Shown here: positions 5,041-39,461 of the stretch, one piece after another
Layout of the letters: every line of letters begins with the position of its first letter
How positions within the stretch are numbered: position 1 is the stretch's first letter
NCBI GenBank assembly: GCA_002868855.1
Contig: PKUM01000077.1
Span: forward strand, 1 to 40,205
Direction of reading: 5' to 3'
Origin: Chromatiales bacterium
Lineage (GTDB): Bacteria; Pseudomonadota; Gammaproteobacteria; Steroidobacterales; BM003
DNA: 40,205 nucleotides
Notes under the pieces: generated by a model
Seen by the model: the letters and a program-made list of their open reading frames with translations, nothing else
What the model was told of the DNA's origin: nothing
The model's database searches: none
Translations under genes and position numbers: made by a program

Positions 5041-8000
5041 TCAGGACAGGCTTTTTATCAAACGTTCGGCGTCAGCTCTCTGGCCCTCGTCGCCTTCGTC
5101 CAGCACTTCTTCGAGTATGCTGCGTGCGCCGTCCGGATCGCCCATGTCCATGTAAGCGCGGGCAAGATCGAGCTTGGTACCAATCTCGCTCATCGTGACC
5201 GCATCGCCCGCGGGCTGCAAGAATTCGTCAGACGGCAGCACCTCGGTTGCCGTGGGGTCATCGTCCACCCCGCGCAGCTCTTCGCCGATATCGAGGTCCA
5301 GCACGGCCGTATCGTCGGGCCGCTCCAGCACGCCGGTCGACTCCGGGCTCTCGAAAATACCCGTTGCACCGGGGCTGTCGAAAATCCCAGTTGCCTCGAC
5401 GTTCTCCAGCAGATCGCCATCCGCGGAAGCGGTAGCCTCTGCGTCCGCGACACCGGGCTGTTCGACCGTATCGCCAAACTCTGCACTCTCGGCGGCATCG
5501 ATCATGTCGCCGAGGTCGAGATCGATACCGGTCGGATCATCGATCGCCCTGACAGACTCCGGCTCATTGGCGAAAATCTCGGCGGCATCCGGCAAGGCGC
5601 TGGCAAGTATCGTCGCGTCTTCGTCCCCGATCACCTCTTCCGGCCCGGCAAGATCTGTCGCGGCCAGGGTCTCGGTTTCGGCGTGCCCGGCATCCTCGTC
5701 TGCGGTCTCTTCGGAAAAGTCGAAGTCGACCTTGCGAATGCCGGTTGACTCGGCGCCCTCCGCCGCGGTCAGGTCTTCGTCTTCTTCTGCCGCGAGGGCC
5801 TCGGCCTGACCGGTACGATCCAGCGGTCCGAGGAAACTGTCGTCGAGATTGACATCGAGCCCGAGATCGTCGAGATCGATTTCTGCGGTTTCGGACGTCC
5901 TGTCGCCGTCAAACTCCGAACCAGCGTCGAGATCGAATTTCTGCTCGATGGTGTCGGCCAGTTCCTCAGCGTTATCGAATCCCGGCGTCTCCAGCGTCGG
6001 CGTCTCCATCGTCGGCATGTCAGCGGCCGGAGTCTCCAGCGTCGTCGTCTCCATCGTCGGTGTATCCAGCGACACGCTTTCGATCGTGGGCGTTTCTAAA
6101 GTGGCATTCTCGGCTGCCACGGTCTCGAGCGTCGGGCTCTCCTGGGTATCGCCGCTGAAATCGAAATCGAGTTCTTCGTCGTCTTCACCGGCGTCGGCCC
6201 AGATCTTTTCCTCGGCCACAGCGCCGGTGTCCGTCAATACCGGCGTTTCGCGGGTATCTCCGCCCGTCTCCAACGCATCACCGAAATCGAGATCGACACT
6301 GCCTTGATCCTCCTCCGCCAGCGACAGGTCAACGGGCGGAGCAACCGCCGTCGCCTCCAGCGCGAGATCGACCGGCTCTTCGCCCGAGGACCGCAGCTCG
6401 CCCGAGAAAATCGGCTCCTCCGGGGCGATTTGCTTGCCCATGATCAGGATCTTGTCCCAATCCGAATCGGCCCCCTCGTCACGGGTGTCGAACAACTTCT
6501 GGGCACTTTGGAGGAATTGGTCCTTATTGCCCCAGACAAAGTAAATTTCCGCCAGCTTTGCCCTGAGGTCATGCCGTTCCGGCGCCTTGTTCAGCGCGGA
6601 TCTGACGACATCGGCCGCCTGGTCGTAGAGACCGTAGGCCATGTGGAAATCGGCTTCGCCGATCGGGTCGCCCTGATCCTGGCCAAGGCGCTCCATGATG
6701 GTATTGGACAACTCGTCGATGGCCGAAATTTCCGCTTTCCCGGGCTTCACTTCCGGGAGCGGCTCGGCCGGAGTCTCGGCTGCACCCAAATCGTCGAAGG
6801 TCGGTAGTTCGAGACTGCCGGTCGTCTCCGCAGTCGTTTCGAAATCAGGGAGTTCGAAGCTGCCGGTCGCATCTGTCCGAGGCTCGAAAACCGGGATTTC
6901 CATGCTGCCGGTATCCTCGGCGGAAACCCCTTCTTCGACCACGATCGACTCTTCGCCGCGAGCACGAACCGGAAGCTCCGTCAGCGTCTGCGTCTGACCC
7001 GTGAGTGACGAATCGTCGGCGGCCTGACCGGCACTGTCCCAGGGTTCGACGAATTCTTCGGTCGCCGCGCGGCGGCGGCGGAGCACCGCCAGCAGGGCTG
7101 CAACAATGACGCCAAGACCAAGCAGAATCAGGAACAATGGTGCAGTGACAAAACTGATCACCTTGCCGAACAACGACTCATCCGCAGCGGGTTGCGCGAG
7201 CCGTGCAGCGGGTTGGACCGGTGCCGGCGGCGTTTCCGTTTCCGCGGCCGGTTCCGGCTGCGGCGCCAGTTCCTCAGGCTGAGCCGGCGAAACCGGTGCC
7301 ACTACCTCCGATTCGGCCTCCTCGATTGCCTGCAGGCGCTGCTGCAACTGCGCCATCTCTTCGTCGCGTAACTGCAGCAGCCTTTGCGTTTCCTCGAGCT
7401 CATCGCGAACGCCAGCGAGTTCGTCGCGAAGCTCGACGTTCTCTTTTGTCAGCTCGGCATCGCCGGTAACCGGCTGGCCACCTACACCGGGCGAGCTCTC
7501 CTCGCTCGGCGGGCGCAGTTCGAGCCGGGCGACCGGCTCCGACGGCGCGGAATAGGCACTGCCGCTGCGCCACTCGTCATACTGGCGTGCGACTTCGGCA
7601 TTGGCCTGGGAAGCGGAAATTGCAGTCACCGCGGAACGGTCGGGTATTCGGAGGATCGAACCCGCCCGCACAAGATTGATGTTCTGCCCCATGAACGCGT
7701 TGGGATTGGCTTCGTAAATCGCCATCATCATCTGGTTGACGGAAACGCTAGTGTCGGGCCGGTAGCGATCTGCAATCTTCCACAACGTGTCGTTTCGCTG
7801 CACCCGGTAACTGTCGCCCGGCGCATCGAAAGGCTGACCGGCAGGCTGATCTGCCGGCGCGGCACGCGGTGCAGGTGGTGGCGGTTGCCGTACCACCGTG
7901 CCCGTTGTCCGGCTTTCCGTTGCGGTACTCGGCGCCTGAACCGGGGCCGGAGCAGGTGCCGGAGCGACAAATGTCGGCGGATCCAGAAACACCGTGTACT

Positions 8001-8367
8001 CGCGCAGCAGGCGGCCGCGGGCCCAGACCGCTTCAACCAGAATCGTGACAAATGGTTCTGTCACGGAAGCCGAGGAAGTCACGATGACGACCGCGTTCCC
8101 GTCCGGGCGCAATTCAGTCCTCAGGTTGAATCCCTGCAAATATTCGGGATAGTCAAGTCCGAGACGATCGAATGCGGCACGCGACGCCAGCTGCACCGTC
8201 AGTCCCGTAACGTCGTCGCGATTTGCCCCGTCGACCGTGATTTCGGCGCGAAATGGCTGGTTGAGGTTCGATTTGAGATCGATGTCACCCAGCGCCAGCC
8301 CCCAGGCAGGCGCCGACATCAGATAAACGCTAAGCAGCAGACTCAAGATGGAAATATGCCGCGCCAT
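5041..8367 (-). CDS. fimV: FimV-family polar / type IV pilus assembly scaffold
   Basis: A large inner-membrane scaffold (1108 residues) of the FimV/HubP type, which in relatives places type IV pilus and polar machinery and controls cAMP signalling. The order is: signal peptide 1-25, periplasmic FimV N-terminal domain 26-130, Pro/Ala linker, LysM peptidoglycan-binding domain about 187-241, coiled coil about 305-352, membrane helix about 406-428 followed by an RRRR stop, then a very acidic cytoplasmic region. This region contains a TPR-like segment starting around DPIGEADFHMAYGLY and the short conserved FimV C-terminal domain (LARAYMDMGD...LEEVLDEG). The acidic part contains three sets of short repeats (listed separately). 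The start at 8367 is preferred over the in-frame ATG at 8388 because AAAGGGAG lies just upstream and the signal peptide then begins correctly. Its neighbours asd and truA match the pseudomonad arrangement. Confidence 0.93.
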   Translation of the reverse strand: MARHISILSLLLSVYLMSAPAWGLALGDIDLKSNLNQPFRAEITVDGANRDDVTGLTVQLASRAAFDRLGLDYPEYLQGFNLRTELRPDGNAVVIVTSSASVTEPFVTILVEAVWARGRLLREYTVFLDPPTFVAPAPAPAPVQAPSTATESRTTGTVVRQPPPPAPRAAPADQPAGQPFDAPGDSYRVQRNDTLWKIADRYRPDTSVSVNQMMMAIYEANPNAFMGQNINLVRAGSILRIPDRSAVTAISASQANAEVARQYDEWRSGSAYSAPSEPVARLELRPPSEESSPGVGGQPVTGDAELTKENVELRDELAGVRDELEETQRLLQLRDEEMAQLQQRLQAIEEAESEVVAPVSPAQPEELAPQPEPAAETETPPAPVQPAARLAQPAADESLFGKVISFVTAPLFLILLGLGVIVAALLAVLRRRRAATEEFVEPWDSAGQAADDSSLTGQTQTLTELPVRARGEESIVVEEGVSAEDTGSMEIPVFEPRTDATGSFELPDFETTAETTGSLELPTFDDLGAAETPAEPLPEVKPGKAEISAIDELSNTIMERLGQDQGDPIGEADFHMAYGLYDQAADVVRSALNKAPERHDLRAKLAEIYFVWGNKDQFLQSAQKLFDTRDEGADSDWDKILIMGKQIAPEEPIFSGELRSSGEEPVDLALEATAVAPPVDLSLAEEDQGSVDLDFGDALETGGDTRETPVLTDTGAVAEEKIWADAGEDDEELDFDFSGDTQESPTLETVAAENATLETPTIESVSLDTPTMETTTLETPAADMPTMETPTLETPGFDNAEELADTIEQKFDLDAGSEFDGDRTSETAEIDLDDLGLDVNLDDSFLGPLDRTGQAEALAAEEDEDLTAAEGAESTGIRKVDFDFSEETADEDAGHAETETLAATDLAGPEEVIGDEDATILASALPDAAEIFANEPESVRAIDDPTGIDLDLGDMIDAAESAEFGDTVEQPGVADAEATASADGDLLENVEATGIFDSPGATGIFESPESTGVLERPDDTAVLDLDIGEELRGVDDDPTATEVLPSDEFLQPAGDAVTMSEIGTKLDLARAYMDMGDPDGARSILEEVLDEGDEGQRADAERLIKSLS
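5280..5410 (-). repeat. TGIF-x-SP repeats in the FimV cytoplasmic region
   Basis: The fimV translation here has three or four copies of a roughly ten-residue unit, ATGIFDSP, ATGIFESP, STGVLERP and a decayed DTAVLDL. The DNA copies are similar to each other, so the array looks like recent tandem duplication within the acidic domain. Confidence 0.7.
5972..6145 (-). repeat. T-x-E-T-P minisatellite in the FimV acidic region
   Basis: About eight units of the form (T/S)(L/M/I)(E/D)(T/S), often followed by P and T, occupy roughly 58 codons of fimV. At the DNA level the unit recurs as variants of a GTCTCCA(G/T)CGTCGG-like word on the plus strand. Copy number of such arrays often varies between strains. 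Confidence 0.7.
6795..6930 (-). repeat. TGS-x-E-x-P-x-F repeats in FimV
   Basis: Three units, TGSMEIPVF, TGSFELPDF and TGSLELPTF, lie just after the membrane helix region of FimV, spaced about 14 residues apart. The repeated threonines and aromatic residues could be modification or docking sites; that is inference. Confidence 0.65.
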
Positions 8368-8406
8368 GAATGCTCCCTTTGGTCCCATACCCCAATTCGG
8401 GCCGAT

Positions 8407-16945: not shown

Positions 16946-19009
16946 TTGAGCGACAAGAGCGCAGTGCCGATTATCGTGATCGCGGAACGGCCCGACAACG
17001 TCGAGGCCATCAACAGCACGCTGCGAAATGCCGGCCATCCGGTTCATTGCACCCATATTCCTGACGTTGGCGACCTCGGCGACGCATTGACCCAGATAAA
17101 CCCGGAACTTCTGCTGGTGTTTAGCGAAGACATCAATACCTCGCTCGAGCAACTCGACGACATTCGTAATGCCTATGCGTCCGGCGTGCCGATTCTCGAC
17201 GTCCGTGACGAGGTCAACGAGGACGCAATCGCGCTGGCGATGCGGCGCGGAGCCCAGGACATCGTGTCGTTGCGCCATCGTGATCGTCTGCAATGGGTTT
17301 GCGGACGCGAACTGCGGGCGTTCCGGCTCGAACGGGCACTGAACCGCACGCTGGCTTCGGCAACCGAGTACAAACGCGCCCTCAATGCTTTCATGGAAGG
17401 CTCCACCGACGCGATAGCACATGTACAGGAAGGCATTGTCGTTGATTCCAACCCGGCATGGCTCGAACTGTTTGGTTATCCGGACGCCGAGGCCATAGAT
17501 GGCATGCCGCTGATGGATTTTTTCGATGCCGACAACCATGCCGCGATGAAGGGCGCACTGGTGGCATGCGGGCAGGGCAAGTGGAGCGACCACGACCTCA
17601 AGATTCAGGGCCTGTGCAGTGACGGCTCGGCGCTATCGCTCAATCTGCAGCTCGACGAGGCGGAGTACGATGGCGAACCGTGTGTCCGCGTCAGCATCAG
17701 AGCCGGCGCCGAGGAGAACCGCGAGCCGGACGAGAGAATCACCGAGGTCGCGACACGCGACCCGCTCACCGGGCTCCTGCACCGGCAACAGTTCCTGACC
17801 GAGCTTGAGACCGCTGTCGCAGAACCGGCCAAGGGAGGTGTTCGCGCACTCGCCTACGTCACCCCGGACAAATTTCGTGCGATAAAAAACAAAGTCGGTC
17901 CGCTCGCCAGCGAGGACGTGATAGTCAAACTTGCGTCGACGCTGCAGGAGCTGGCCGGTCCGGACGACCTGGTCGGGCGTTTTGGCGGCACGATGTTTGC
18001 AATTCTGCTGGCACGCGGAACCGAACGGGATGTGGAGGAATGGGCCGATAGCCTGTGTGCGCGGGTCAGAAAACTGACTTTCGAAGGCGGCGGCAAGTCG
18101 ATATCCGTCTCCTGCACGATCGGCGTGGCGCCAGTCGGATCCGCCGGCAATTCGATCTCAGACCTGGTTGCGCTGGCCGACGCCGCGAATGAAAAGGGCC
18201 GCGAGGAAGGCGGAGACAAGGTCGTCGTCCACAAGGTGGATCTCACCTCCGCGACCAGCACGAAAGCGAAGGATGCGGTCTGGATCAAGTTGATTAAATC
18301 AGCACTGATGGAGAACCGGCTGCACCTGGTGCACCAGCCGATCGCCAGCCTGCAGAGTCAGGAAAAGGACATGTACGATGTCGTCGTGCGGATGAAGGAC
18401 CCGCGCGGCAACGAAATTCTTCCCGGCGATTTTCTCCCCGCGGCGCAGCGCAATGGACTGATGAAAACGCTTGATCGATGGATCATCAATGCCGCCGTGC
18501 AATTCTGTGCATCACGCCGGGCGTCGCGGGTTTTCGTGCGTATATCCAGCGACTCAATCGCCGATAACGGACTCGCGAAGTGGGTCGCGCAACTGGTCAA
18601 AAACGCGAAATTGCCGACCAGCGTCATCTGTTTCCAGGTTCCCGAAGACGTGGCCGCCGAAAACATGCTCCCAACTCAGGAACTGGCGCAGCAACTCGGA
18701 GAATTCGGATTCTCGTTCGCAATCGAACATTTCGGCATGAGCACCAATGCCGGACGCCTGTTGGAGCAGCTGACAATGGACTACATCAAAATCGATGGCT
18801 CGCTTATGCAGGGACTGGCAAGCAACGAATTGAAACAAGCCAAGGTCCGTTCGCTGGTGGAGATGGCGCGTGCGCGCGAGGTTCAGACCATCGCCGAGCG
18901 GGTCGAGGACGCCAATACGATGGCGGTGCTGTGGCAGCTCGGCGTGCAGTGCGTGCAGGGCTATTACGTCCAGGAGCCGGAAGTCGTGCTCGAGGACCTG
19001 GCACTGTAA
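16946..19009 (+). CDS. fimX: FimX-like degenerate GGDEF/EAL c-di-GMP effector
   Basis: A 687-residue cytoplasmic signalling protein with a REC-like domain 1-125, PAS about 142-255, GGDEF about 265-430 and EAL about 440-685, the same plan and length as Pseudomonas FimX. The GGDEF site reads GGTMF (347-351), losing both acidic catalytic residues, and the EAL motif reads DVV (478-480, followed by VRM). The catalytic DDFG block is EHFG (594-597) and the usual NLS-type Asn is lost (VRIS). It is therefore probably a c-di-GMP receptor or scaffold with no cyclase or phosphodiesterase activity. The REC domain also lacks an obvious phospho-acceptor site. Start is TTG at 16946 with AGGAG six bases upstream. 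It sits between psd and parC, as fimX does near these genes in Pseudomonas, and is convergent with parC (13-base gap). Confidence 0.85.
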   Translation: MSDKSAVPIIVIAERPDNVEAINSTLRNAGHPVHCTHIPDVGDLGDALTQINPELLLVFSEDINTSLEQLDDIRNAYASGVPILDVRDEVNEDAIALAMRRGAQDIVSLRHRDRLQWVCGRELRAFRLERALNRTLASATEYKRALNAFMEGSTDAIAHVQEGIVVDSNPAWLELFGYPDAEAIDGMPLMDFFDADNHAAMKGALVACGQGKWSDHDLKIQGLCSDGSALSLNLQLDEAEYDGEPCVRVSIRAGAEENREPDERITEVATRDPLTGLLHRQQFLTELETAVAEPAKGGVRALAYVTPDKFRAIKNKVGPLASEDVIVKLASTLQELAGPDDLVGRFGGTMFAILLARGTERDVEEWADSLCARVRKLTFEGGGKSISVSCTIGVAPVGSAGNSISDLVALADAANEKGREEGGDKVVVHKVDLTSATSTKAKDAVWIKLIKSALMENRLHLVHQPIASLQSQEKDMYDVVVRMKDPRGNEILPGDFLPAAQRNGLMKTLDRWIINAAVQFCASRRASRVFVRISSDSIADNGLAKWVAQLVKNAKLPTSVICFQVPEDVAAENMLPTQELAQQLGEFGFSFAIEHFGMSTNAGRLLEQLTMDYIKIDGSLMQGLASNELKQAKVRSLVEMARAREVQTIAERVEDANTMAVLWQLGVQCVQGYYVQEPEVVLEDLAL

Positions 19010-29310: not shown

Positions 29311-29396
29311 GTTTCCGGTCTCGGGATTTTCCGACGGCATTGACGGCCACCAATGGCCCGCACCATTCGCCACCATCAACCTTTCAGGATTACATC

Positions 29397-30230
29397 ATGA
29401 GCAAAGAGGCCCCCGCGACGGGCGTCGCGATCGCCGAAATTGAAGACGTCCAGGGTCGCGCCGACACCCGTCGAATTCCGATCAACAAGGTCGGAGTGAA
29501 GGACATATTCCATCCGGTGCGGGTCAAGGACCGGTCCGGCGGGGAACAGCATACGATCGCGAATTTCAACATGTACGTGAACCTGCCGCACGATTTCAAG
29601 GGCACGCACATGTCGCGATTCGTCGAAATTCTGCACCGTCATGAACGCGAGATTTCGGTCAGGTCTTTCAAGGAAATGCTGGCGGAAATGACCGACCATC
29701 TCGAGGCCCAATCCGGTCACATCGAAATGTCGTTCCCGTATTTCATCAGCAAGAAAGCGCCGATATCTGGGGTCGAAAGCCTGATGGACTACCAGGCCAG
29801 CCTGATCGGTGCCCGCCGCAGTGGCGAAACCACGACGTACATCAAAGTCGTTGTGCCGGTTACCAGCCTTTGTCCCTGCTCGAAAAAAATCTCGGACTAC
29901 GGAGCGCATAACCAGCGTTCGCACGTCACGATCAAGGCGCGAATTACCGGTTTCGTGTGGATAGAGGAAATAATCGATATCGCCGAATCGGAGGCTTCCT
30001 GCGAGCTCTACGGGATACTGAAGCGACCGGACGAAAAATACGTCACCGAGCGCGCCTACGATAATCCGAAGTTCGTTGAAGACATGGTTCGCGACATCGC
30101 GGTCAGGCTAAATGACGACGAGCGGATTCGAGCCTATGTCGTGGAATCGGAGAACTTCGAGTCGATTCACAACCACTCCGCTTATGCCCTTATCGAATGC
30201 GACAAGGATGCGGATGACGACGACAGCTAG
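29397..30230 (+). CDS. folE2: GTP cyclohydrolase FolE2 (type IB)
   Basis: This opens and rearranges GTP to dihydroneopterin triphosphate, the entry to folate synthesis; it is the metal-promiscuous alternative to FolE. It has 277 residues, with the [11 protein letters not shown] strand, HMSRFVEIL, the active-site SLCPCSK (Cys159, Cys161), AHNQRSHV with His171, and the C-terminal NHSAYA. The ATG at 29397 is chosen over an upstream in-frame reading (29340) because AGGA lies upstream and the family N-terminus begins there. The extreme C-terminus is very acidic (DADDDDS). It is convergent with the kinase gene, 35 bases apart; that gap has only short imperfect inverted repeats. Confidence 0.94.
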
Positions 30231-30265
30231 CCACCGGGCTGTCGATGACCGGTTGGCCGGGGGGT

Positions 30266-31567
30266 TTACTGAACTTCGAAATCGAGGCGTTCAGCGCTTT
30301 GCAGGCGGCGGATCAGGGTACGCAGAAATACCTTGTTGAAACGCAACTGGCAGGCCGATGAGGCCTGCTCGAGAAGACTCGAGCTGACGCAGATCAATGC
30401 AACGGTATCGGCCGCCCGAATGGTAGCGGTGCGGCGCGCGCCAAGCACGTAGCTGGACTCGCCGAAACAGTCTCCCGGACCGAGCTTGCCGACGACCCGA
30501 TCCTGCTGCTCGACGTGGACGCCGCCACGCACGATCACGTAGAAGCGATCGTCGCGCTCGCCCTCGCGAACGATCTCCTCACCATTTTCGTAGTCGTGCC
30601 AGTCGCTGGCACGCAACAACTCCCAGATTTCGGCGTGCGAAAACTCGTGGAAAAAACGCAGCCTGCGCAACGTCTCGTAGCGCTGCTGCTTGTCGACCCG
30701 GTCGTTTTGCTTTTTCAGGCCCTGGAATATCCGGGTCAGGTCGGCGGCGAGATCGACGCCGGTCTTGAACCGTTTCTCCGGCTCTTTCTGCATGCACATC
30801 GCGACAGTTTGTTCGAGTTGCTCCGGAATGTCGGCGCGCAGCGTGTGGATGGGCGGCGGCGTGGCATAGACGATCTGGTGCAGGAGCTTTGAGAGGTTGC
30901 TCGCGCGAAACGGGCGAAACCCGGTGAGCAACTCGTACATGGTTGCTCCAAGAGAAAAGAGATCGGAGCGGCTCGTCAGTTCCTCCGAAGTCACCTGTTC
31001 CGGCGACATGTAACTCGGCGACCCGGCTATGCCGTCGATTCGCGACACGTCGGAATCGCGCACGATCGCGATTCCGAAATCGATAATCCGAACATCGTTG
31101 TCGAGTGTAAGCATTATGTTGCTGGGCTTGATATCGCGATGGATGACGCCCCTGCCATGGGCGTAAGCCAGCGACTTGGCGCATTTGTAAATAATTTCCA
31201 CGACGTCGTCGATGCGCAGCAAATTGTCCGGCTTGGTGTATGCCGCGAGCGTACGCGCGCCGTGGATGTGCTCGGTCACCACGTAATACCGGCCGTCCTC
31301 TTCGCCCGCATCGTAGATCGGGAGAATGTTGGGATGCTGCAGCTTGCCCACCATGTGGGCTTCGTTGAAAAACATCTTGCGGGCAACGCGTGCCTTGTCG
31401 TCGTCGTCGTCCGCCTGATAGTTGTAAACCTTGATGGCGACGTCACGACCGTACTGCGGATCATGGGACAGGTAGACGTTACCGGTGCTGCCGCGCCCGA
31501 CCTCGTTAATGATCGTATATTTGCCGATCCGTGCGGGGATCGGCTGTTCTTGTCGTCGCGCGCTCAA
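30266..31567 (-). CDS. Ser/Thr protein kinase with C-terminal cyclic-nucleotide-binding domain
   Basis: A soluble 433-residue protein. The kinase domain (about 16-285) is complete: glycine loop GRGSTG (24-29), Lys46 in VAIK, Glu69, HRDIKPSN (143-150), DFG (163-165) and SPE (188-190). After a basic linker (about 286-305) comes a cNMP-binding domain (about 312-405) with the phosphate-binding cassette GDCFGESSYVLGARRTATI, keeping FGE and Arg379, so nucleotide binding is likely intact. No membrane segment is seen. Regulation of the kinase by cAMP or c-di-/cyclic GMP-type ligands is inference. Start is TTG at 31567 with AAAAGG upstream. It is the last gene of the glyA-to-kinase run, 26 bases after pgpA. 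Confidence 0.92.
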   Translation of the reverse strand: MSARRQEQPIPARIGKYTIINEVGRGSTGNVYLSHDPQYGRDVAIKVYNYQADDDDDKARVARKMFFNEAHMVGKLQHPNILPIYDAGEEDGRYYVVTEHIHGARTLAAYTKPDNLLRIDDVVEIIYKCAKSLAYAHGRGVIHRDIKPSNIMLTLDNDVRIIDFGIAIVRDSDVSRIDGIAGSPSYMSPEQVTSEELTSRSDLFSLGATMYELLTGFRPFRASNLSKLLHQIVYATPPPIHTLRADIPEQLEQTVAMCMQKEPEKRFKTGVDLAADLTRIFQGLKKQNDRVDKQQRYETLRRLRFFHEFSHAEIWELLRASDWHDYENGEEIVREGERDDRFYVIVRGGVHVEQQDRVVGKLGPGDCFGESSYVLGARRTATIRAADTVALICVSSSLLEQASSACQLRFNKVFLRTLIRRLQSAERLDFEVQ

Positions 31568-31593
31568 GTTGTGACCTTTTCCTCAGCATCCGC

Positions 31594-32124
31594 CTAGGCT
31601 CCCATCACTGGAACCAGACCGGCAAGGAGCAGCAGCCCGATAGCTGCAAAAACCCCTGCCACGATGTCGTCTACCATAATGCCGAGCCCGCCCGGGATAC
31701 TGTGATCCAGATCGCGTATTGGCCATGGCTTGAGGATGTCGAAAACCCGGAACAGAGCGAAACCAGCAACGCTCCAGACAAGGCCCGCCGGCGCCACGAG
31801 CATGGTCAGGAAATAGCCGGCAAATTCGTCCCAGACAATACCGGGGTGATCGTGGGCGCCGAGACGGCGCGCGCTCTCGCCGCACAGCCAGACCCCGGCG
31901 ATACAAACGGCAACCAGAATTCCAATCCTGACCGTCATCGGCAACTGCCGCATCGGCAGCTCGAGAACAACCGCCGCCAGGGTGCCCGCGGTGCCCGGGG
32001 CAAAAGGTGAGAGACCGCTGCCAAACCCGAATGCGAAAAAATGCACCGGATCGGAAAACACCTCCGATGCCGTGACCTTTCGCTTTGCCGACTCAGCGGA
32101 AATGATCGAATCCTCCCTCTTCAA
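31594..32124 (-). CDS. pgpA: Phosphatidylglycerophosphatase A
   Basis: An inner-membrane phosphatase that makes phosphatidylglycerol from its phosphate. It has 176 residues from the TTG at 32124. Family motifs are GFGSGLSPFAPGTAGT, HDHPGIVWDEFAGY, FRVFDILKPWPI and GGLGIMVDDIVAG, with about four hydrophobic segments. The start is uncertain: TTG at 32124 overlaps thiL by 32 bases, while a strong GGGAGG lies inside the frame, just before ATC and ATT codons at about 32106-32101; a later GTG (about residue 20) is also possible. Overlap with thiL implies coupled translation, the usual thiL-pgpA arrangement. Confidence 0.92.
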   Translation of the reverse strand: MKREDSIISAESAKRKVTASEVFSDPVHFFAFGFGSGLSPFAPGTAGTLAAVVLELPMRQLPMTVRIGILVAVCIAGVWLCGESARRLGAHDHPGIVWDEFAGYFLTMLVAPAGLVWSVAGFALFRVFDILKPWPIRDLDHSIPGGLGIMVDDIVAGVFAAIGLLLLAGLVPVMGA

Positions 32125-33058
32125 GTGGCTCGATCTCGCCGCAAACCCTGGCGAACAGCCCCGGGGAATCGCAAATCTCGCCGATCTCCGTCACCGCGCA
32201 GGCCCAGTCGCGAGCACGCCGCTCGAAATCGAGCAAACCACGAACCGGCACGGCAAAGCAAAGTTCATAGTCGTCGCCGCCGCTCAACACATATCTGCGC
32301 GCCTGCATCGGGTCGGCCACTTCCGCCAGCTCGTCCGACACTGGCAGCGACTCCAGCTCGATCACCGCCCCGATACCGCTGGCCTGCACGAGATGTCCAA
32401 GGTCTGCCGCCAGCCCATCGGAAACATCGATACATGCGCTGGCGATCCCCCGGAGATCGATCCCCTGAGCAACCCGAGGTTGAGGACGGTTGAAACGACG
32501 CAGCAGTCTGGCAGCGGGGCCCTGGGGAACGCGCAGACCGCGTTGCCATAATGCCAGTCCGGCGGCGGCTTCGCCGGGCGCCCCGGTGACAAACAGGCGA
32601 TCACCCGGTTGCGCGCCATCGCGGCGCAAGGCGGTGCCGCTGGGCACAAGCCCCGCCATTTGGACGCTTGCCACGAGCGGTCCCTTGACGGTATCGCCGC
32701 CGACCAGCGCAACTCCGTGTTCCCTGGCGAGTCCGATCAGGCCTTCGGCAAATCGGGCCAGCCACGACTCGTCGGGCTCGGGTAACGACAGTGCCAGGGT
32801 CGCCCAGGCCGGTTCCGCACCCATCGCTGCCATGTCGCTCAGATTGACCGCCATGGCACGATAGCCGACATCCTCGGCTACCATGTCCTCGGGAAAATGT
32901 TGCCCCCTGACCAGCATGTCGACGCAACTCACCAGGTCGTGACCAGCGGGGACTTGCATAATTGCGGCGTCGTCGCCAATACCCAGGCACACGTCGCTAC
33001 GTTGCGGGCCTGGCGCCGCAAAGAACCGCTCGATAATCTCGAACTCAGTCAGCGGCAC
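32093..33058 (-). CDS. thiL: Thiamine-monophosphate kinase
   Basis: The last step of thiamine diphosphate synthesis: ATP-dependent phosphorylation of thiamine phosphate. It has 321 residues from the GTG at 33058. Motifs are LTEFEIIERFF at the N-terminus, GIGDDAA, DMLVRGQHFP, the nucleotide-binding VGGDTVKG, GRDG-like RRDGAQPGD, CIDVSDGL and SGGDDYELCF. A longer in-frame reading to 33127 is not family-like and overlaps the DUF2889 gene by 83 bases; the GTG start gives an overlap of 14 bases. The nusB-thiL-pgpA order is a standard gammaproteobacterial one, here with DUF2889 inserted. Confidence 0.95.
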   Translation of the reverse strand: MPLTEFEIIERFFAAPGPQRSDVCLGIGDDAAIMQVPAGHDLVSCVDMLVRGQHFPEDMVAEDVGYRAMAVNLSDMAAMGAEPAWATLALSLPEPDESWLARFAEGLIGLAREHGVALVGGDTVKGPLVASVQMAGLVPSGTALRRDGAQPGDRLFVTGAPGEAAAGLALWQRGLRVPQGPAARLLRRFNRPQPRVAQGIDLRGIASACIDVSDGLAADLGHLVQASGIGAVIELESLPVSDELAEVADPMQARRYVLSGGDDYELCFAVPVRGLLDFERRARDWACAVTEIGEICDSPGLFARVCGEIEPLEEGGFDHFR

Positions 33059-33596
33059 CGTCGCGATACCAGCGCGGATAATATTCCCGAACGACTGCGC
33101 CATCGCTGCGCAAAACATGACAACCATCGAGCTGTGGCGGACGCCGGCCGGCGTCGGCTGGCTCCGTTTTCAGCAGCGGCATTATCGTCTGCAGCGCAGC
33201 CACCGCCATGTTGTCGAGCAACTTCGTGATGTGCGTGCATCCCCGGACTCCGCCGAACGACCGCCTTACCTCGCGACTCCAGCCCGGCCCGATGCGAAGC
33301 CCGATCAGTGCCCGGTAGTCTGGTGTAATGTCGCCGCAACCCGGGTACGGATGTTTGTCGGTGACTGCTTCGGCGGCAACGATCTCGAGCCGGTCGTTAA
33401 GCGTGATCCGCATCCACATATCGTGCACGGGATCCCCGCTTTCAATGGTGCCGCGGAAACGGTTTTCGAATGAATAGGCTTTGCTGTCGACGATTCGTCC
33501 GTCTATGTCGAACAGGCCGTCGTCGCGGCGGAAACCCTCGCAACGAATCTCCCTGGAGTGTATCGGGCTGCGCGCCCCGGGTTCTGTCAATGGCAC
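33045..33596 (-). CDS. DUF2889 family protein
   Basis: A 183-residue soluble protein of the DUF2889 family, function unknown. Family blocks visible are HSREIRCEGFRRDDGLFDIDGRIVD at the start, DPVHDMWMRITL, the Cys-containing YPGCGDITPDYRALIGLRIGPGW and GGVRGCTHITKLLDN, then a variable C-terminus. The invariant-looking Cys-Thr-His (GCTH) and Trp residues suggest an active or ligand site, but no fold is assigned from sequence. Start is GTG at 33596 with AGGGAAG upstream. It is 11 bases after nusB and overlaps thiL by 14 bases, so it is cotranscribed and probably translationally coupled to thiL. Confidence 0.85.
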   Translation of the reverse strand: MPLTEPGARSPIHSREIRCEGFRRDDGLFDIDGRIVDSKAYSFENRFRGTIESGDPVHDMWMRITLNDRLEIVAAEAVTDKHPYPGCGDITPDYRALIGLRIGPGWSREVRRSFGGVRGCTHITKLLDNMAVAALQTIMPLLKTEPADAGRRPPQLDGCHVLRSDGAVVREYYPRWYRDGAAD

Positions 33597-33607
33597 GATC
33601 CGCTTCC

Positions 33608-34057
33608 CTACCCCTGGTGCTCGATCGCGCGCAACTCAGTCGCGGCGCGGTCCATGACCGCATTCACATACTTGTGCCCGTCTTCGGCACCGAACGATCG
33701 CGCAAGCTCTACTGCCTCGTTCAGGACCACCCGGAAAGGCACATCGATCTTGTTCACCAGTTCGTAAAATCCGATCCACAGCACGGCATGTTCGACCGGA
33801 TCGAGAAGACTCGGGTGGCGATCGGCGAATTCAGCGATTCGCAAATCGAGATCAGCGCGTTGTTCGGCGGCGCCGAGCACGAGCTCCTTGAAGTACTCGG
33901 TATCGAGGCCTTCTACCTGCTCCCCGCTAAGAAACTGGTTGCAAACGTCCTTTATCGGCTGGTCCTGTATCTGCCATTGATACAGGGCCTGCATAGCGCA
34001 TTTGCGCGCCTTCTGGCGGCCGCGAACCATTTTGCCGCGAGCGGCGCGTGCACCCAT
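33608..34057 (-). CDS. nusB: Transcription antitermination factor NusB
   Basis: An RNA-binding factor that with NusE (S10) recognises boxA and prevents early termination in rRNA operons. It has 149 residues: a basic N-terminus (RGRQKARKCAMQALYQWQ), the NusE-binding helices, and the C-terminal DVPFRVVLNEAVELARSFGAEDGHKYVNAVMDRAA block shared with E. coli NusB. The ATG at 34057 is one base after the ribH stop; an in-frame reading further upstream is only the ribH gene in another frame. The ribH-nusB junction is the classical one. Confidence 0.95.
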   Translation of the reverse strand: MGARAARGKMVRGRQKARKCAMQALYQWQIQDQPIKDVCNQFLSGEQVEGLDTEYFKELVLGAAEQRADLDLRIAEFADRHPSLLDPVEHAVLWIGFYELVNKIDVPFRVVLNEAVELARSFGAEDGHKYVNAVMDRAATELRAIEHQG

Positions 34058-34058
34058 G

Positions 34059-34547
34059 TCAGTTGCCAAGCTCGCGCAGCAGGTTCGCCATTTCGACGAC
34101 GGACAATGCTGCTTCGGCACCCTTGTTGCCGGCCTTCGTCCCGGCACGCTCGATCGCCTGTTCGATGGTATCTACCGTCAGCACGCCAAACCCGACCGGC
34201 ACACCGGTTTCACGAGCGACAGCGGACAAACCCTTGGCACACTCTCCGGCGACATATTCGAAATGCGGCGTCCCGCCACGGATGACCGCGCCGAGCGCGA
34301 CGACACCATCGTAACGCCGCGAGGCCGCGACACGCGAAACCGCCAGCGGCAGCTCGAAAGCACCGGGCACGTGGATGATCGTCAGATTCGATGGGTCCGC
34401 GCCGTGCCGGCACAACGTCGCCACGGCCGACTTGACGAGACTATCGACGATGAACTCGTTGAACCTGGTCGCGACAATCGCCAGCCTCAGATCACGCGCA
34501 GCGAGATCGCCTTGAACGGTCCGGGTCTTGTTCATATTCCATACCAT
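34059..34547 (-). CDS. ribH: 6,7-dimethyl-8-ribityllumazine synthase
   Basis: The penultimate riboflavin enzyme, joining the ribityl pyrimidinedione to dihydroxybutanone phosphate; it forms icosahedral or pentameric shells. It has 162 residues with [11 protein letters not shown], the phosphate/substrate loop [30 protein letters not shown] and [24 protein letters not shown]. The ATG at 34547 is annotated; a second ATG at 34535 (MNKTRT) is equally likely, neither having a clear Shine-Dalgarno. It follows ribBA by 19 bases. Confidence 0.95.
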
Positions 34548-34566
34548 GAATGTGTTGGTTCCGAAG

Positions 34567-35712
34567 TCAGTCCGACGCCGCAGCCGTTTTCGCCGCTCGC
34601 GGCCGCTCGTCGACGTAGCCCACGACTTCGAGATCGAATCCCGAGATGCCTTGCATTTGTTTCGGCGAACTCAGCACCCGCATGCGATGCACACCGAGGT
34701 CACGCAAAATCTGCGCGCCGATTCCATAGGTGCGAAGCAGTGGCGCTCCACCCTCGCCGGCATTTTTTAATTGGGCCCCGGCACGAAGCGAAGTCGCGGC
34801 CTCGATAAGCTCCCGCGGCCCCTCCTGCTGACGCAGAACTATCACGACACCCACGCCTTCGTCATCGATCCACTGCATTGCATCGCCTAGCGGCCACCCA
34901 AGCGCCGGGCTGCGAACCCCAACTACATCCCTCAGTGTGTCCGGCAAATGCACTCGTACCAGCGGCGCATCTTGCTGCGAAAGGTCACCCTTAACAAGGG
35001 CCAGGTGAACATTGCGATGTACGTAGTCGTCATAGCAATAGAGGCGCCACTGGCCGAAGGCGGTATTGACGTCCTGCTGCATAATCCTCTCGACGCTTGG
35101 CTCCTTGTCGAGTCGATAACGAATCAGGTCTGCAATCGTGCCAATCTTCAATCCATGATGGACCGCGAATTCTTCGAGATCGGGCCGCCGAGCCATAGTG
35201 CCATCTTCGTTCATGATTTCGACGATAACGGCCGACGCCTCGCTTGCGCCCGAGAGTCGGGCGAGGTCGCAGCCCGCCTCCGTATGCCCGGCCCGGCTCA
35301 ACACGCCTCCGGCCTGGGCCATCAACGGAAAAATATGCCCCGGCTGGCGCAGATCCTCCGGCCTTGCGTCGGGCTTGACCGCCGCCGCCACAGTGACTGC
35401 CCGATCGTGCGCCGAGATACCGGTGGTAATTCCCTCCGCGGCTTCGATCGATAGCGTGAAATTGGTGCTGTGCTGATCGTCGGTATCGGACACCATCAGC
35501 GGCAGCCGCAATTGGCGGCAACGGTCGCGGGTCAATGTCAGGCAAATCAGGCCACGCCCGAAGCGAGCCATAAAGTTGATCGCGTCCGGGGTTACCCGGT
35601 CGGCTGCCATCACCAGGTCACCCTCATTTTCCCGATCTTCGTCATCCATGATGATGACCATCCGGCCGAGCCGCAGATCCTCGAGAACCTCCTCGATCGT
35701 ATTCAGCTTCAT
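34567..35712 (-). CDS. ribBA: DHBP synthase fused to a degenerate GTP cyclohydrolase II domain
   Basis: The N-terminal half (1-205) is a complete 3,4-dihydroxy-2-butanone-4-phosphate synthase: [12 protein letters not shown] (23-34) with its acidic metal ligands, STNFT, and [13 protein letters not shown] (141-152). The C-terminal half (about 206-370) has a GTP cyclohydrolase II fold remnant ([28 protein letters not shown]-like DLEVVGY), but the zinc and catalytic segment, normally a CxTGD...RCDCG pattern, has no cysteine (256-285), and the GRGIG segment is lost ([11 protein letters not shown]). GTP cyclohydrolase II activity is therefore unlikely, and a separate ribA is expected elsewhere. This matches the RibBX-type proteins described in some gammaproteobacteria. 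Start ATG with GGAGAG upstream. Confidence 0.9.
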
Positions 35713-35724
35713 ATTTCTCTCCGA

Positions 35725-36372
35725 CTACTCCGCAGCGAAGCCGTGCAGTTTAAGCTTGCCGAGATCGAGACCCTCATCGCTTCGATCCCGCAGCAGTTGT
35801 TCGAGGTAACGCGCAATGACATCCACCTCGATATTGACGGCAGTGCCGGGCGCGAAATCGCCGATGTTAGTCTCGGCGAGTGTATGCGGCACGATGTTCA
35901 CATCGAAGCGGTGGCCTTTCACGTCATTGACCGTCAGGCTGATCCCGTCGATACAGATCGAGCCCTTGCGCGCGACATAGCGCACCAGTTCGCGCGGCAA
36001 TTCGAACTCGAAGCGTACCGACCGGGCGTCCGGTCGCCGCGCAACGCAGCGCCCGATGCCATCGACGTGCCCGGAGACGAGATGACCGCCGAGGGGTTGT
36101 CCGGCTACCAGCGCCTTCTCCAGATTTAGCGTCGCGTGCCCGTCAAGCCCACCCAGGCTGGTCAGATTCAGCGTCTCGACGGAACAATCGGCGGCGAACC
36201 AGTTCGGGCCCAGTTCGACCACGGTAAGACAGACGCCGTTCACCGCAATGCTGTCGCCCGGCCGAACCCCGGCCATGTCCAGCCCGCCCGACTCGATTTC
36301 GAGACGGACATCGCCGCCGATACTGTGGCGCGCCCTGATCCTGCCAGTGGCCTGAATGATGCCGGTGAACAT
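35725..36372 (-). CDS. ribE: Riboflavin synthase alpha subunit
   Basis: This dismutates two lumazine molecules to riboflavin. It has 215 residues made of two similar lumazine-binding barrels: the first opens with [12 protein letters not shown] and contains [13 protein letters not shown]; the second opens with [10 protein letters not shown] and contains [15 protein letters not shown]. The length fits RibE (RibC in E. coli naming). The ATG at 36372 has AGGA seven bases upstream and is eight bases after ribD; ribBA follows 12 bases later. The whole riboflavin set (D, E, BA, H) is thus together. Confidence 0.95.
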
Positions 36373-36379
36373 TGAAATC

Positions 36380-37477
36380 CTAGGTGTCAGCGAGGAGTAA
36401 CCGGACTTTGAGGTCCGGTCCTACTCTGGTGCATTCCGAAAAACTGCATTCTACCTTGTCGGCCATGGTTACGACCTGCGGCAGTTGAAACATGGCGCGA
36501 CCGTCACCGCCCAGCAGGCTCGGCGCGTAGTAGATCACCAGTTCGTCTGTCAGCCCCGCCGCGACCAGCGCGCCGTTGAGAATCGGCCCGGCCTCGACCA
36601 GGACTTCGTTGACTTCGCGCTGCGCCAGCAGCTCAAGCAACTGCCGTAAATCCAGATGCCCGCCTTGTTCCGCCACGTCCATAAACCCGGCTCCCGCTGC
36701 CGCAAGCGCAGCGCGACGAGCCCCGTCATTGCTGGCCGTGGCGATGACTACGTCACCGTCGAGACCCAGTGTTTGCGCGCCCGGCGCAGTGCGCAGACGG
36801 GTATCGCAAATGACTCGCAGCGGTTGCCGTTCGCAATTCTCGCGGCGGACATTCAGCGACGGGTCGTCGGCGAGAACGGTGCCGATCCCGGTGACAATGG
36901 CAGAGCAACCTGCCCGCAGCTGTTGCACATCGGCGCGTGATTCAGCACTGCTAATCCACTTGCTTTCGCCGCTCGCGACGGCGGTACGCCCGTCGACACT
37001 TGCCGCAATCTTGCTGATTACCCATGGTCTGCCACGCCGCATTCGCGATACAAAGCCGCGGTTTAGCGCCTCGGCACGGTCGCCATACAGGCCGACCGCC
37101 ACTTCGATTCCGGCTTTCCGCAGCGTGCCTGCGGCATTGCCGTCGACAACAGGATTGGGGTCCAGCATCGCCACGACCACGCGCGCCGGAGCCGCCGCGA
37201 CAACCGCATCGACGCAAGGTGGCGTTCTGCCGCTATGACTGCAGGGTTCGAGCGTCAGGTAGATGGTCGCACCGCGCGCGGCCTCGCCCGCCTCGGCCAG
37301 CGCCAGCACCTCGGCATGCGGCTCACCGGCACGCCGGTGCCAGCCCTCACCCACTACCTGGTCGCCTCTGACGATGACGCATCCGACGCGCGGATTCGGA
37401 TGGGTTGTGTTTTGGCCACGCGCAGCGAGCGCGAGCGCGCGCGCCATGAAACGCTGGTCCGCCGGGGTGAAACTCAC
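36380..37477 (-). CDS. ribD: Bifunctional pyrimidine deaminase / reductase RibD
   Basis: The second and third steps of riboflavin synthesis. It has 365 residues: an N-terminal cytidine-deaminase-like domain with zinc ligands His54 (PHAEV, with Glu56 as proton shuttle), Cys79 and Cys88 ([12 protein letters not shown]), and a C-terminal NADPH reductase domain from about 150 ([41 protein letters not shown]). The start is GTG at 37477, overlapping the nrdR stop by four bases (GTGA), so the two are coupled; nrdR-ribD is a common order in gammaproteobacteria. Confidence 0.95.
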
Positions 37478-37998
37478 CGCCGCCGGCGACGCCGCTGTCG
37501 CGCTTCCGGTAGCAGCGACATCTGCTCGCGATCGACGAGATGTTTCGAAACCTGTTGCAATCGCTCGATCTCCTCGCGAAATTCCTCGACATCCTGGAAG
37601 CTGCGATAAACGGATGCAAACCGGACGAAAGCGACTTCGTCGAGTTGCCGCAGTTCCTCCATCACCAGCTCGCCGATCATGACCGAGCGCACTTCGCGCT
37701 CACCGGCCACCTGGAGCTTGTGCACGATCCGCGACAAAGCCTCTTCCACCGCTTCGCTGCTGACCGGGCGCTTCTCCAGCGCCCGCTCGATCCCGGCGCG
37801 CAGTTTGGCCTGGTCGAAGGGCTGACGGCTGGCATCGCTTTTAACGACGTGTGGCAACACCAGTTCCGCGGTTTCGAAAGTGGTGAATCGCTCCGCGCAA
37901 CTCAGGCATTCGCGACGCCGCCGCACCTGGCGCCCCTCACCCGCGAGCCGGGAGTCGGCTACCTTGGTTTCAGAGTGACCGCAAAAAGGACAGTGCAT
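37474..37998 (-). CDS. nrdR: Ribonucleotide reductase transcriptional repressor NrdR
   Basis: A nucleotide-sensing repressor of ribonucleotide reductase operons. It has 174 residues: a zinc ribbon with Cys3, Cys6, Cys31 and Cys34, with RVRRRRE-like basic residues just before the second pair, then an ATP-cone domain (about 49-139; [17 protein letters not shown] and [16 protein letters not shown]). The C-terminus ends in an arginine-rich tail (QRRRRRR), longer and more basic than usual. The ATG at 37998 is 10 bases after glyA. I see no NrdR box within the window. Confidence 0.95.
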
Positions 37999-38008
37999 CG
38001 CTCACGAA

Positions 38009-39298
38009 TCACGCGCCGGCGGCGGCCCTGGCCGCGGCCGGCGCCGCACGGTAGACGGGAAACCGTCCGCAGAGTTCCAGCACCTGTCCGCGCACCCGGT
38101 CGATCATTTCCTCGCTCGAGATGTCTTCGAGAATATCGGCAATCCAGTGAGTCATCGTCGTAACTTCGTCGGGGCCGAATCCGCGCGTGGTGATAGCCGG
38201 CGTACCCAGCCGCAAACCGCTCGTTACAAAAGGCGAACGTGGATCGTTGGGCACGGCGTTCTTGTTGACCGTGATATTCGCGCGCCCCAGCGCTGCGTCG
38301 GCGTCTTTGCCAGTGATGTCCTTGTCGATAAGGTCGAGCAGGAACAGATGATTGTCGGTGCCGCCGGAAACGATCCTGAATCCGCGCTCCGTCAGGACCT
38401 CGGTCATCAGTCGCGCATTGGCGACCACTTGCTGCTGGTACTCGACAAACCCCGGCTGCATCGCCTCGAGGAATGCCACGGCCTTGGCCGCGATCACATG
38501 CATCAACGGTCCGCCCTGAGTACCCGGAAAAACCAGTGAATTCAGCTTCTTCGTCAGCTCGGCGTTTTCGCGCGCCAGGATTATGCCGCCGCGCGGGCCG
38601 CGCAGCGTCTTATGGGTCGTGCTGGTGACCACATCGGCGATCGAGACCGGGCTCGGATAAACGCCGGCTGCAACGAGACCGGCGACATGCGCCATGTCGA
38701 CGACGAGGTAAGCACCTACTTCGTCAGCAATGTCACGAAACTTCTGCCAGTCGATGATCCGGGAGTAGGCCGAAAAACCCGCGACGATCATGCGCGGGCG
38801 ATGCTCGCGAGCGAGCGCCGCCACCTGTTCGTAATCAACCTCGCCACTGCCCTCGTCGATCCCGTACTGGAACGCATTAAAGAGCTTGCCGGAGAAATTG
38901 ACTTTGGCGCCATGGGTAAGGTGACCGCCATGCGCCAGACTCATGCCGAGAATCGTGTCGCCTGGCTGCAACAGTGCCAGGAACACGGCGACGTTGGCCT
39001 GCGAACCCGAATGCGGCTGCACGTTGACATAGTCCGCGCCAAACAGCTCGCGCGCGCGCTCGATAGCGAGGCGCTCGGCGATATCGACAAACTCGCAACC
39101 GCCGTAGTAGCGTTTGCCGGGATAGCCTTCCGCGTACTTGTTCGTCAGCACCGACCCCTGGGCTTCCAGAACGCACGGGCTGGCATAGTTCTCAGAGGCA
39201 ATCAGTTCGATGTGATCTTCCTGACGCTGGCGCTCATGCTCCATGGCCGATGCCAATTCCGGGTCAAATGCGGCGATGGTCAGATCGGGCGTAAACAT
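38009..39298 (-). CDS. glyA: Serine hydroxymethyltransferase
   Basis: A PLP enzyme interconverting serine and glycine and charging tetrahydrofolate with one-carbon units. It has 429 residues from the ATG at 39298. The PLP lysine is Lys230 in [13 protein letters not shown] (E. coli Lys229). [24 protein letters not shown] and [12 protein letters not shown] are invariant blocks. The extreme C-terminus is Ala-rich. The start is chosen because GGAGACG precedes the ATG; the 24-codon upstream extension is not family-like. It is the first gene of the long minus-strand run. The folate link to folE2/folC is metabolic. Confidence 0.97.
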
Positions 39299-39461
39299 TC
39301 TGGCGTCTCCGTGAGCAAAAAAGGCGGGCCCGGGAGATTGTACCCGAGGGCGCGCTGCAACGGGGCGCATGGGCCGGCCCGCGGTCGCGTTGGCATATTA
39401 CTGGATTGGCGCGCCGCGATTGCCGATAATCGCGCGCCTTGCCGGAAAAATGCGAGCCCCC
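39299..39461. promoter_or_regulatory. Divergent glyA / ettA intergenic region
   Basis: This 163-base gap separates the divergent glyA and ettA starts. For glyA the minus strand has TACAAT (39342-39337), giving a leader of about 32 bases, but no good -35. That leader contains a GC-rich palindromic patch (CGGGCCCG) followed by six Ts, which looks terminator-like but is too short to be convincing. For ettA the plus strand has GATAAT (39425-39430) without a good -35; TTGGCA (39390-39395) is not at the right distance. No riboswitch is recognised. Confidence 0.4.

Follow-up and report, generated by a model that had tools for sequence, protein, structure and literature searches.

A Chromatiales bacterium of the order Steroidobacterales encodes a 433-residue protein, P0001, in which a PknB-type Ser/Thr kinase domain is followed by one cyclic nucleotide-binding (CNB) domain. 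The gene lies on the reverse strand (30266..31567) of a 40,205-nucleotide stretch of DNA, hereafter the window. Judging from sequence comparisons, we consider it probable (about 0.6) that P0001 is a soluble, competent kinase whose activity would be under the control of a cyclic nucleotide (most probably cAMP) at its own C-terminal CNB domain, and that it would form a conserved second branch of the order's cAMP network. We favor this reading because the phosphate-binding cassette of the CNB domain is conserved order-wide and because the kinase is co-inherited with a predicted adenylate cyclase and with CRP.

In the proposed mechanism, class III cyclases would make cAMP, which would act on transcription through CRP and would also bind the CNB domain of the kinase, changing kinase activity and hence protein phosphorylation. 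As a guess, cAMP binding might relieve autoinhibition of the kinase. Ligand binding, its effect on kinase activity, the direction of control and all substrates are what we infer here. What is known of cAMP in bacteria comes largely from CRP-type transcription factors. If the proposal is correct, bacteria would gain, via an independent fusion, the route from cAMP to phosphorylation that is the hallmark of eukaryotic PKA and PKG.

Domain architecture of P0001

The kinase-CNB gene is supported by its ORF, by domain searches and by orthologues. By eye, we read TTG as its start codon, with a ribosome-site-like GAGGAAAAGG 7 nt ahead of it and 26 nt between the start and the stop of the upstream pgpA gene. 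Pfam assigns residues 17–268 to Pkinase (PF00069, E 1.8e-50; 30764..31519, −) and residues 325–401 to cNMP_binding (PF00027, E 3.6e-15; 30365..30595, −), both above cut-off. The architecture, i.e., a kinase plus one CNB domain, is hence confirmed as real, far beyond chance. In the AlphaFold2 model (mean pLDDT 87.4, pTM 0.66), which also shows the CNB domain, a helix at residues 270–301 joins the two domains. P0001 is predicted to be soluble, with no membrane segment noticed by eye in its sequence.

For the analysis of conserved residues we used 79 distinct, nearly full-length sequences (loci L007–L092), i.e., 62 close ones at ≥60% identity, P0001 included, and 17 more distant ones. The initial annotation had described the catalytic motifs of the kinase as intact; accordingly, the catalytic Lys (K46), Glu (E69), HRD Asp (D145), Asn (N150) and DFG Asp (D163) are invariant in all 79. 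By sequence, the kinase domain is closest to StkP (151 bits) and PknB (148 bits). A structure search gave PknB and PknA as top matches, and the closest fold was that of PknB (5u94; Z 34.0, rmsd 1.7, 257 residues aligned). With its catalytic residues and fold, P0001 is a Hanks-type, PknB-like Ser/Thr kinase. The profile of the PASTA kinases (NF033483) scored 257.5 bits, below its cut-off of 450, and the match covers only positions 7–284 of the 563 in the profile. With the full model as query, all matches listed by the structure search were kinases, so that the CNB part was hardly probed by fold.

The phosphate-binding cassette was located by alignment at residues 368–383 (30419..30466, −) and reads F368-G369-E370-S-S-Y-V-L-G-A-R-R379-T. 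It thus retains the FGE motif and the conserved Arg to which the initial annotation had pointed. All 62 close sequences have G369, E370 and R379; of the distant ones, 16/17 keep E370 and 14/17 keep R379. The model has a short helix at residues 370–373. E370 we take to correspond to E200 of PKA, and R379 was aligned by eye with R209 of PKA. R209 coordinates the cAMP phosphate, according to a passage in PMC2246266. In trypanosome PKA, a nucleoside-binding signature is described in which R209 is lost and A202 is changed to Glu (passage in PMC6440977); this signature is absent from P0001, where R379 is retained and S372 is small. The residue that follows R379 varies among the 62 close sequences (T 35, Q 17, N 5, S 3, A 1 and one other), so cAMP and cGMP cannot be told apart from the sequence.

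When we compared the isolated CNB region with the PDB, the best entry by summed score was a PKG, whose four domains together give 106.8 bits and singly at most 36 bits. Among matches over a single stretch, the best include MloK1, a bacterial channel, with 48.4 bits.

The details of the domain bear on two other readings. The CNB domain might sense another ligand, e.g., c-di-GMP or another nucleotide or metabolite, which would then control the kinase. In the close sequences the cassette core is FGE[TAS]SY (S in 59/62), not the canonical FGE[LIV]AL, and in the distant homologues it is mostly FGE[MI][GA]. Moreover, an Asp339 that is invariant in 62/62 close sequences occupies, as placed by eye, the position of Gly169 of PKA, a residue that marks canonical CNB families; CNB folds do bind other ligands (both points from passages in PMC2246266). 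The variable residue 380 and an EAL-GGDEF protein encoded in the window also agree with a different ligand. Against this stand the invariance of E370 and R379 in the close set and the fact that the gene tracks CRP and an FHA-cyclase in the order (see below), and we regard another ligand as unlikely.

Alternatively, the CNB domain could be ligand-free and serve dimerization or docking, the kinase being regulated otherwise. An EQxSxxCQLRF motif and the C-terminal helix stand out by their strong conservation in the close set, with a mean column identity to P0001 of 0.78 at residues 404–425 compared with 0.67 at residues 303–410, which suggests a conserved contact. A domain without ligand would, however, not be expected to retain both E370 and R379 in 62/62 sequences, and we consider this reading quite improbable. 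The remaining column identities of the close set are 0.78 for the kinase part (residues 15–280), 0.37 for the joining segment (281–302) and 0.07 for the last eight residues.

Conservation and genomic place of the fusion gene

Orthologues of the kinase-CNB protein occur across the order with 60–79% identity. At E ≤1e-40, 110 of 147 order genomes match P0001, and in 106 of these 110 the best match covers at least residues 12–397, with 60–78% identity apart from the protein's own copy. Three genomes (G096, G111, G135) were counted as kinase-positive on partial or split matches; G122 was counted as kinase-negative because its best match is weak (E 3.3e-57). In pairwise comparisons of the loci of relatives, the identities of the kinase usually exceed those of ThiL, PgpA and NusB. 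The kinase-CNB fusion is hence no one-off and has been kept over most of the order.

In a draw of 398 genomes from the phylum, six matched at E ≤1e-70, the genome under study included. Four of the other five matches are full length and within the class; the fifth (G613) is from outside the class and covers the kinase part only. Distant full-length matches with 31–42% identity were found in beta- and deltaproteobacterial and in Nitrospinota MAGs.

In one genome of the order, G100, two TAG stops in frame interrupt the kinase orthologue (L029:1465-2790); close relatives have Gln at the position of the first. Recoding of TAG was rejected as an explanation, since TAG terminates other genes of G100. 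The thiL and pgpA matches of this genome are unbroken and CRP is retained. In seven other kinase matches with reported stops, the stops are at the ends.

In the window, the kinase gene closes the run glyA-nrdR-ribD-ribE-ribBA-ribH-nusB-DUF2889-thiL-pgpA-kinase, and its description as the end of a cofactor and lipid gene run is confirmed. All genes of the run are on the reverse strand. The seven from glyA to nusB (33608..39370) were assigned by domain searches and synteny, the DUF2889 gene (33045..33596) by domain search, thiL (32093..33127) by TIGR01379 above cut-off, and pgpA (31594..32124), directly upstream of the kinase-CNB gene with a 26-nt gap, by Pfam PF04608. On the other side, folE2 (29340..30230, +; domain searches) is the convergent neighbor. 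The DUF2889 gene, between nusB and thiL, is an extra member here; at E ≤1e-6 it was matched by L068 alone among the compared loci, many of which are short. Otherwise the run, with or without pgpA, was found whole or partial in the loci of relatives.

The initial annotation had called the position after thiL and pgpA odd for a signaling gene and had proposed a neighborhood search for kinase-CNB fusions beside pgpA. We started from 109 loci (L008–L116; some genomes possibly being represented twice), of which 39 were dropped for identity below 60% or a missing start and four more for less than 700 bp upstream, leaving 66 testable loci. In 65 of these the kinase-CNB orthologue is downstream of thiL/pgpA. 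The nearest same-strand upstream match was PgpA in 44, ThiL in 21 and neither in one. The supposedly odd position is therefore a stable one. It recurs elsewhere in the class, where four or more loci from other families (L231, L235, L242, L250) have kinase homologues near rib, thiL, pgpA or folE2; in L235 the kinase rests on a sequence-search match, since ORF calling masked it there.

The same constancy, in 65/66 loci and in these loci of other families, might suggest a kinase dedicated to regulating its riboflavin, thiamine and phosphatidylglycerol run. But conserved gene order may reflect co-expression only, the closest upstream match is ThiL instead of PgpA in 21/66 loci, and homologues in other families adjoin unrelated genes, in clusters that look by eye like pgi and mpl. 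We therefore hold such a dedicated role to be very unlikely and retain the reading of a cAMP-responsive kinase. A promoter scan of 30150–33700 found no sigma-70-type site (mean in shuffles 1.0). The terminator scan of the same interval gave five hits compared with 3.0 in shuffles, a count on which no inference rests.

Elsewhere in the class, kinase homologues, some of them paired, adjoin other genes. Close pairs of kinase-CNB homologues were seen in L231, L232, L233, L236, L238 and L239, all from other families; in L233, L236, L238 and L239 the pair surrounds a gene read by eye as glucose-6-phosphate isomerase.

cAMP machinery and co-inheritance with an FHA-cyclase

No class I adenylate cyclase was found as cAMP source in the 147 order genomes. 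In the genome under study, class III cyclases are represented by two matches and CNB domains by seven, the latter spread over six ORFs, and its CRP (P0003) scores 322.8 bits against an NCBIfam equivalog cut-off of 266. P0002, encoded on another contig (C147, L132:3879-4784), is a 301-residue class III cyclase with an FHA domain (Pfam 51.2 bits, cut-off 20.7). We compared 59 such FHA-cyclases, i.e., P0002, 29 further best-scoring loci of the order and 29 loci of a class draw, two of which are also of the order. The metal residues Asp13 and Asp57 are present in 59/59, as are the FHA residues G218, R219, S233, R234, H236, N254 and G255. Lys and Asp form the adenylate-selecting pair of class III cyclases (passage in PMC1262709); by our own placing of the positions, these are Lys53 (58/59) and Asp111 (59/59). 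Together, the residues predict an adenylate cyclase. Class III cyclases usually also hold a catalytic Asn. At this position P0002 has His118, and His is found in 29/33 sequences at ≥50% identity compared with Asn in all 26 others, so that the activity of the order's FHA-cyclase is not certain.

The FHA-cyclase was detected in 106 of the 147 order genomes (E ≤1e-20). Kinase and FHA-cyclase occur together in 105 genomes, the kinase alone in four (G040, G048, G070, G100), the cyclase alone in one (G122) and neither in 37 (Fisher p 4.7e-29, ignoring ancestry). The corresponding numbers for kinase and CRP are 106 with both, 35 with neither, and three genomes in each discordant class. These counts are of genomes and not of independent events: absences cluster by clade (f12, f13), and not all assemblies are complete. 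Among the kinase-only genomes, the assembly of G040 is 73% complete, and in G048 and G070 the kinase is unbroken and no FHA-cyclase was matched. G100, with its broken kinase, likewise has no FHA-cyclase match and is in effect a case of joint loss; moved to the class with neither gene, it changes the counts to 105 with both, 38 with neither and four discordant. In genus g33 (G072, G137), neither kinase nor FHA-cyclase was found at the thresholds used, and CRP-like matches (57 and 65% identity) and other cyclases are present. The patterns of G100 and g33 speak for a link between kinase and FHA-cyclase, those of G048 and G070 against one; the low identity of the CRP-like matches in g33 limits its weight.

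In a class draw of 271 genomes, from which three own-order matches had been removed, the association was weaker than in the order: 29 genomes have both genes, 21 the kinase alone, 30 the cyclase alone and 191 neither, the two genes having been scored at different thresholds. As control gene we took the CHASE2 part of another kinase, which is present in 26/147 genomes, i.e., in 25 of the kinase-positive (84 without) and in one of the kinase-negative ones (37 without); this gene is a poor null. The FHA-cyclase gene was not found beside the kinase in the kinase loci examined (flanks of 1.5 to about 10 kb). The P0002 gene instead adjoins a PEP carboxykinase-like gene, as read by eye, with similar neighbors in L141.

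In the regulators GarA and OdhI, an ETTS site is phosphorylated by PknB or PknG and bound by the protein's own FHA domain. The FHA-cyclase resembles this phospho-switch in having a conserved Thr in a disordered linker beside the FHA domain, but differs in its output domain, a class III cyclase. Thr178 lies between cyclase and FHA domain, where a disordered linker begins (pLDDT <50 at 178–190 in the P0002 model), is mostly preceded by acidic residues and is present in 58/59 FHA-cyclases.

The proposed control of the kinase by cAMP may extend to a closed loop, in which the cAMP-controlled kinase would phosphorylate Thr178 and the cyclase's own FHA domain would capture it, switching cAMP synthesis. 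The resemblance of Thr178 to the ETTS site, the invariant FHA residues (59/59) and the close co-inheritance in the order are consistent with such a loop. Thr178 is, however, not specific to this kinase: among the class FHA-cyclases it is kept in 17/17 with and in 9/10 without a kinase match, for which reason we rejected it as a marker of kinase presence, and we treat the FHA-cyclase as a conceivable rather than a supported target of the kinase. The genome under study also has four other Pkinase matches above cut-off and three other FHA matches. We regard the loop as tentative and, on balance, somewhat unlikely. Slightly more doubtful is the complete two-way circuit, in which cAMP would switch the kinase, the FHA domain of the cyclase would read phosphothreonine via Thr178, CRP would be a parallel output, and the whole would be a core system of most of the order. 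Such a pairing with the FHA-cyclase, if real, would bring together two signaling currencies commonly viewed as separate, and two small proteins would suffice to examine each step of the circuit.

Related systems and further signaling genes

The initial annotation had proposed a kinase directly controlled by cAMP or cGMP with the logic of eukaryotic PKG. This interpretation is partly supported: the cassette is conserved across the order and the gene is co-inherited with cyclase and CRP, two points that favor control by a cyclic nucleotide. The comparison with PKG holds as an analogy. PKG, including the Plasmodium type, likewise has kinase and cNMP-binding domains in one polypeptide. It belongs to the AGC kinase group; PKG and PKA have tandem CNB domains, which in PKG are N-terminal to the kinase, an order that was also seen in our sequence search. 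P0001, in contrast, has a single CNB domain that follows the kinase, and its fold is closest to PknB. It is thus analogous to PKG but not a member of this family; in our best reading, P0001 is wired like PKG and was built independently. Compared with PknB/StkP-type Hanks kinases, P0001 shares the kinase domain by sequence and fold, yet falls under the PASTA-kinase cut-off and carries a CNB domain.

Related architectures have been touched upon before. Kannan 2007 gives "kinases" among the partners of the "Other_bacterial" CNB family (PMC2246266), and a 2024 paper (PMC11032199) implies that STKs of Planctomycetota carry cyclic nucleotide-binding domains; the passages concerned do not describe the present kinase-CNB family, its synteny, a test with cAMP or an FHA-cyclase partner. 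The main text of a 2005 survey of prokaryotic kinase architectures (PMC1262709) contains, by term search, neither "cNMP" nor "cyclic nucleotide". In searches of the open-access PMC literature we found no description of the kinase-CNB family, its synteny or its FHA-cyclase pairing; this absence is weak, since only this literature was searched.

Further signaling genes were noticed in the window. A FimV-type protein (5041-8388, −; FimV_N E 1.1e-33), 22 kb from the kinase, is probably the one meant where the initial annotation referred to an influence of such proteins on cAMP signaling; none of our results connects it with the kinase. The GGDEF-EAL protein is encoded at 16946-19009 (+). Elsewhere in the genome, a 354-residue frame (L118, contig C129) matches PF00027 twice, for two CNB domains, and its C-terminus resembles a rhodanese by eye. 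In a 411-residue frame (L122, contig C28), a CNB domain precedes a GGDEF-like domain recognized by eye, and this protein may link cyclic nucleotide and c-di-GMP signaling.
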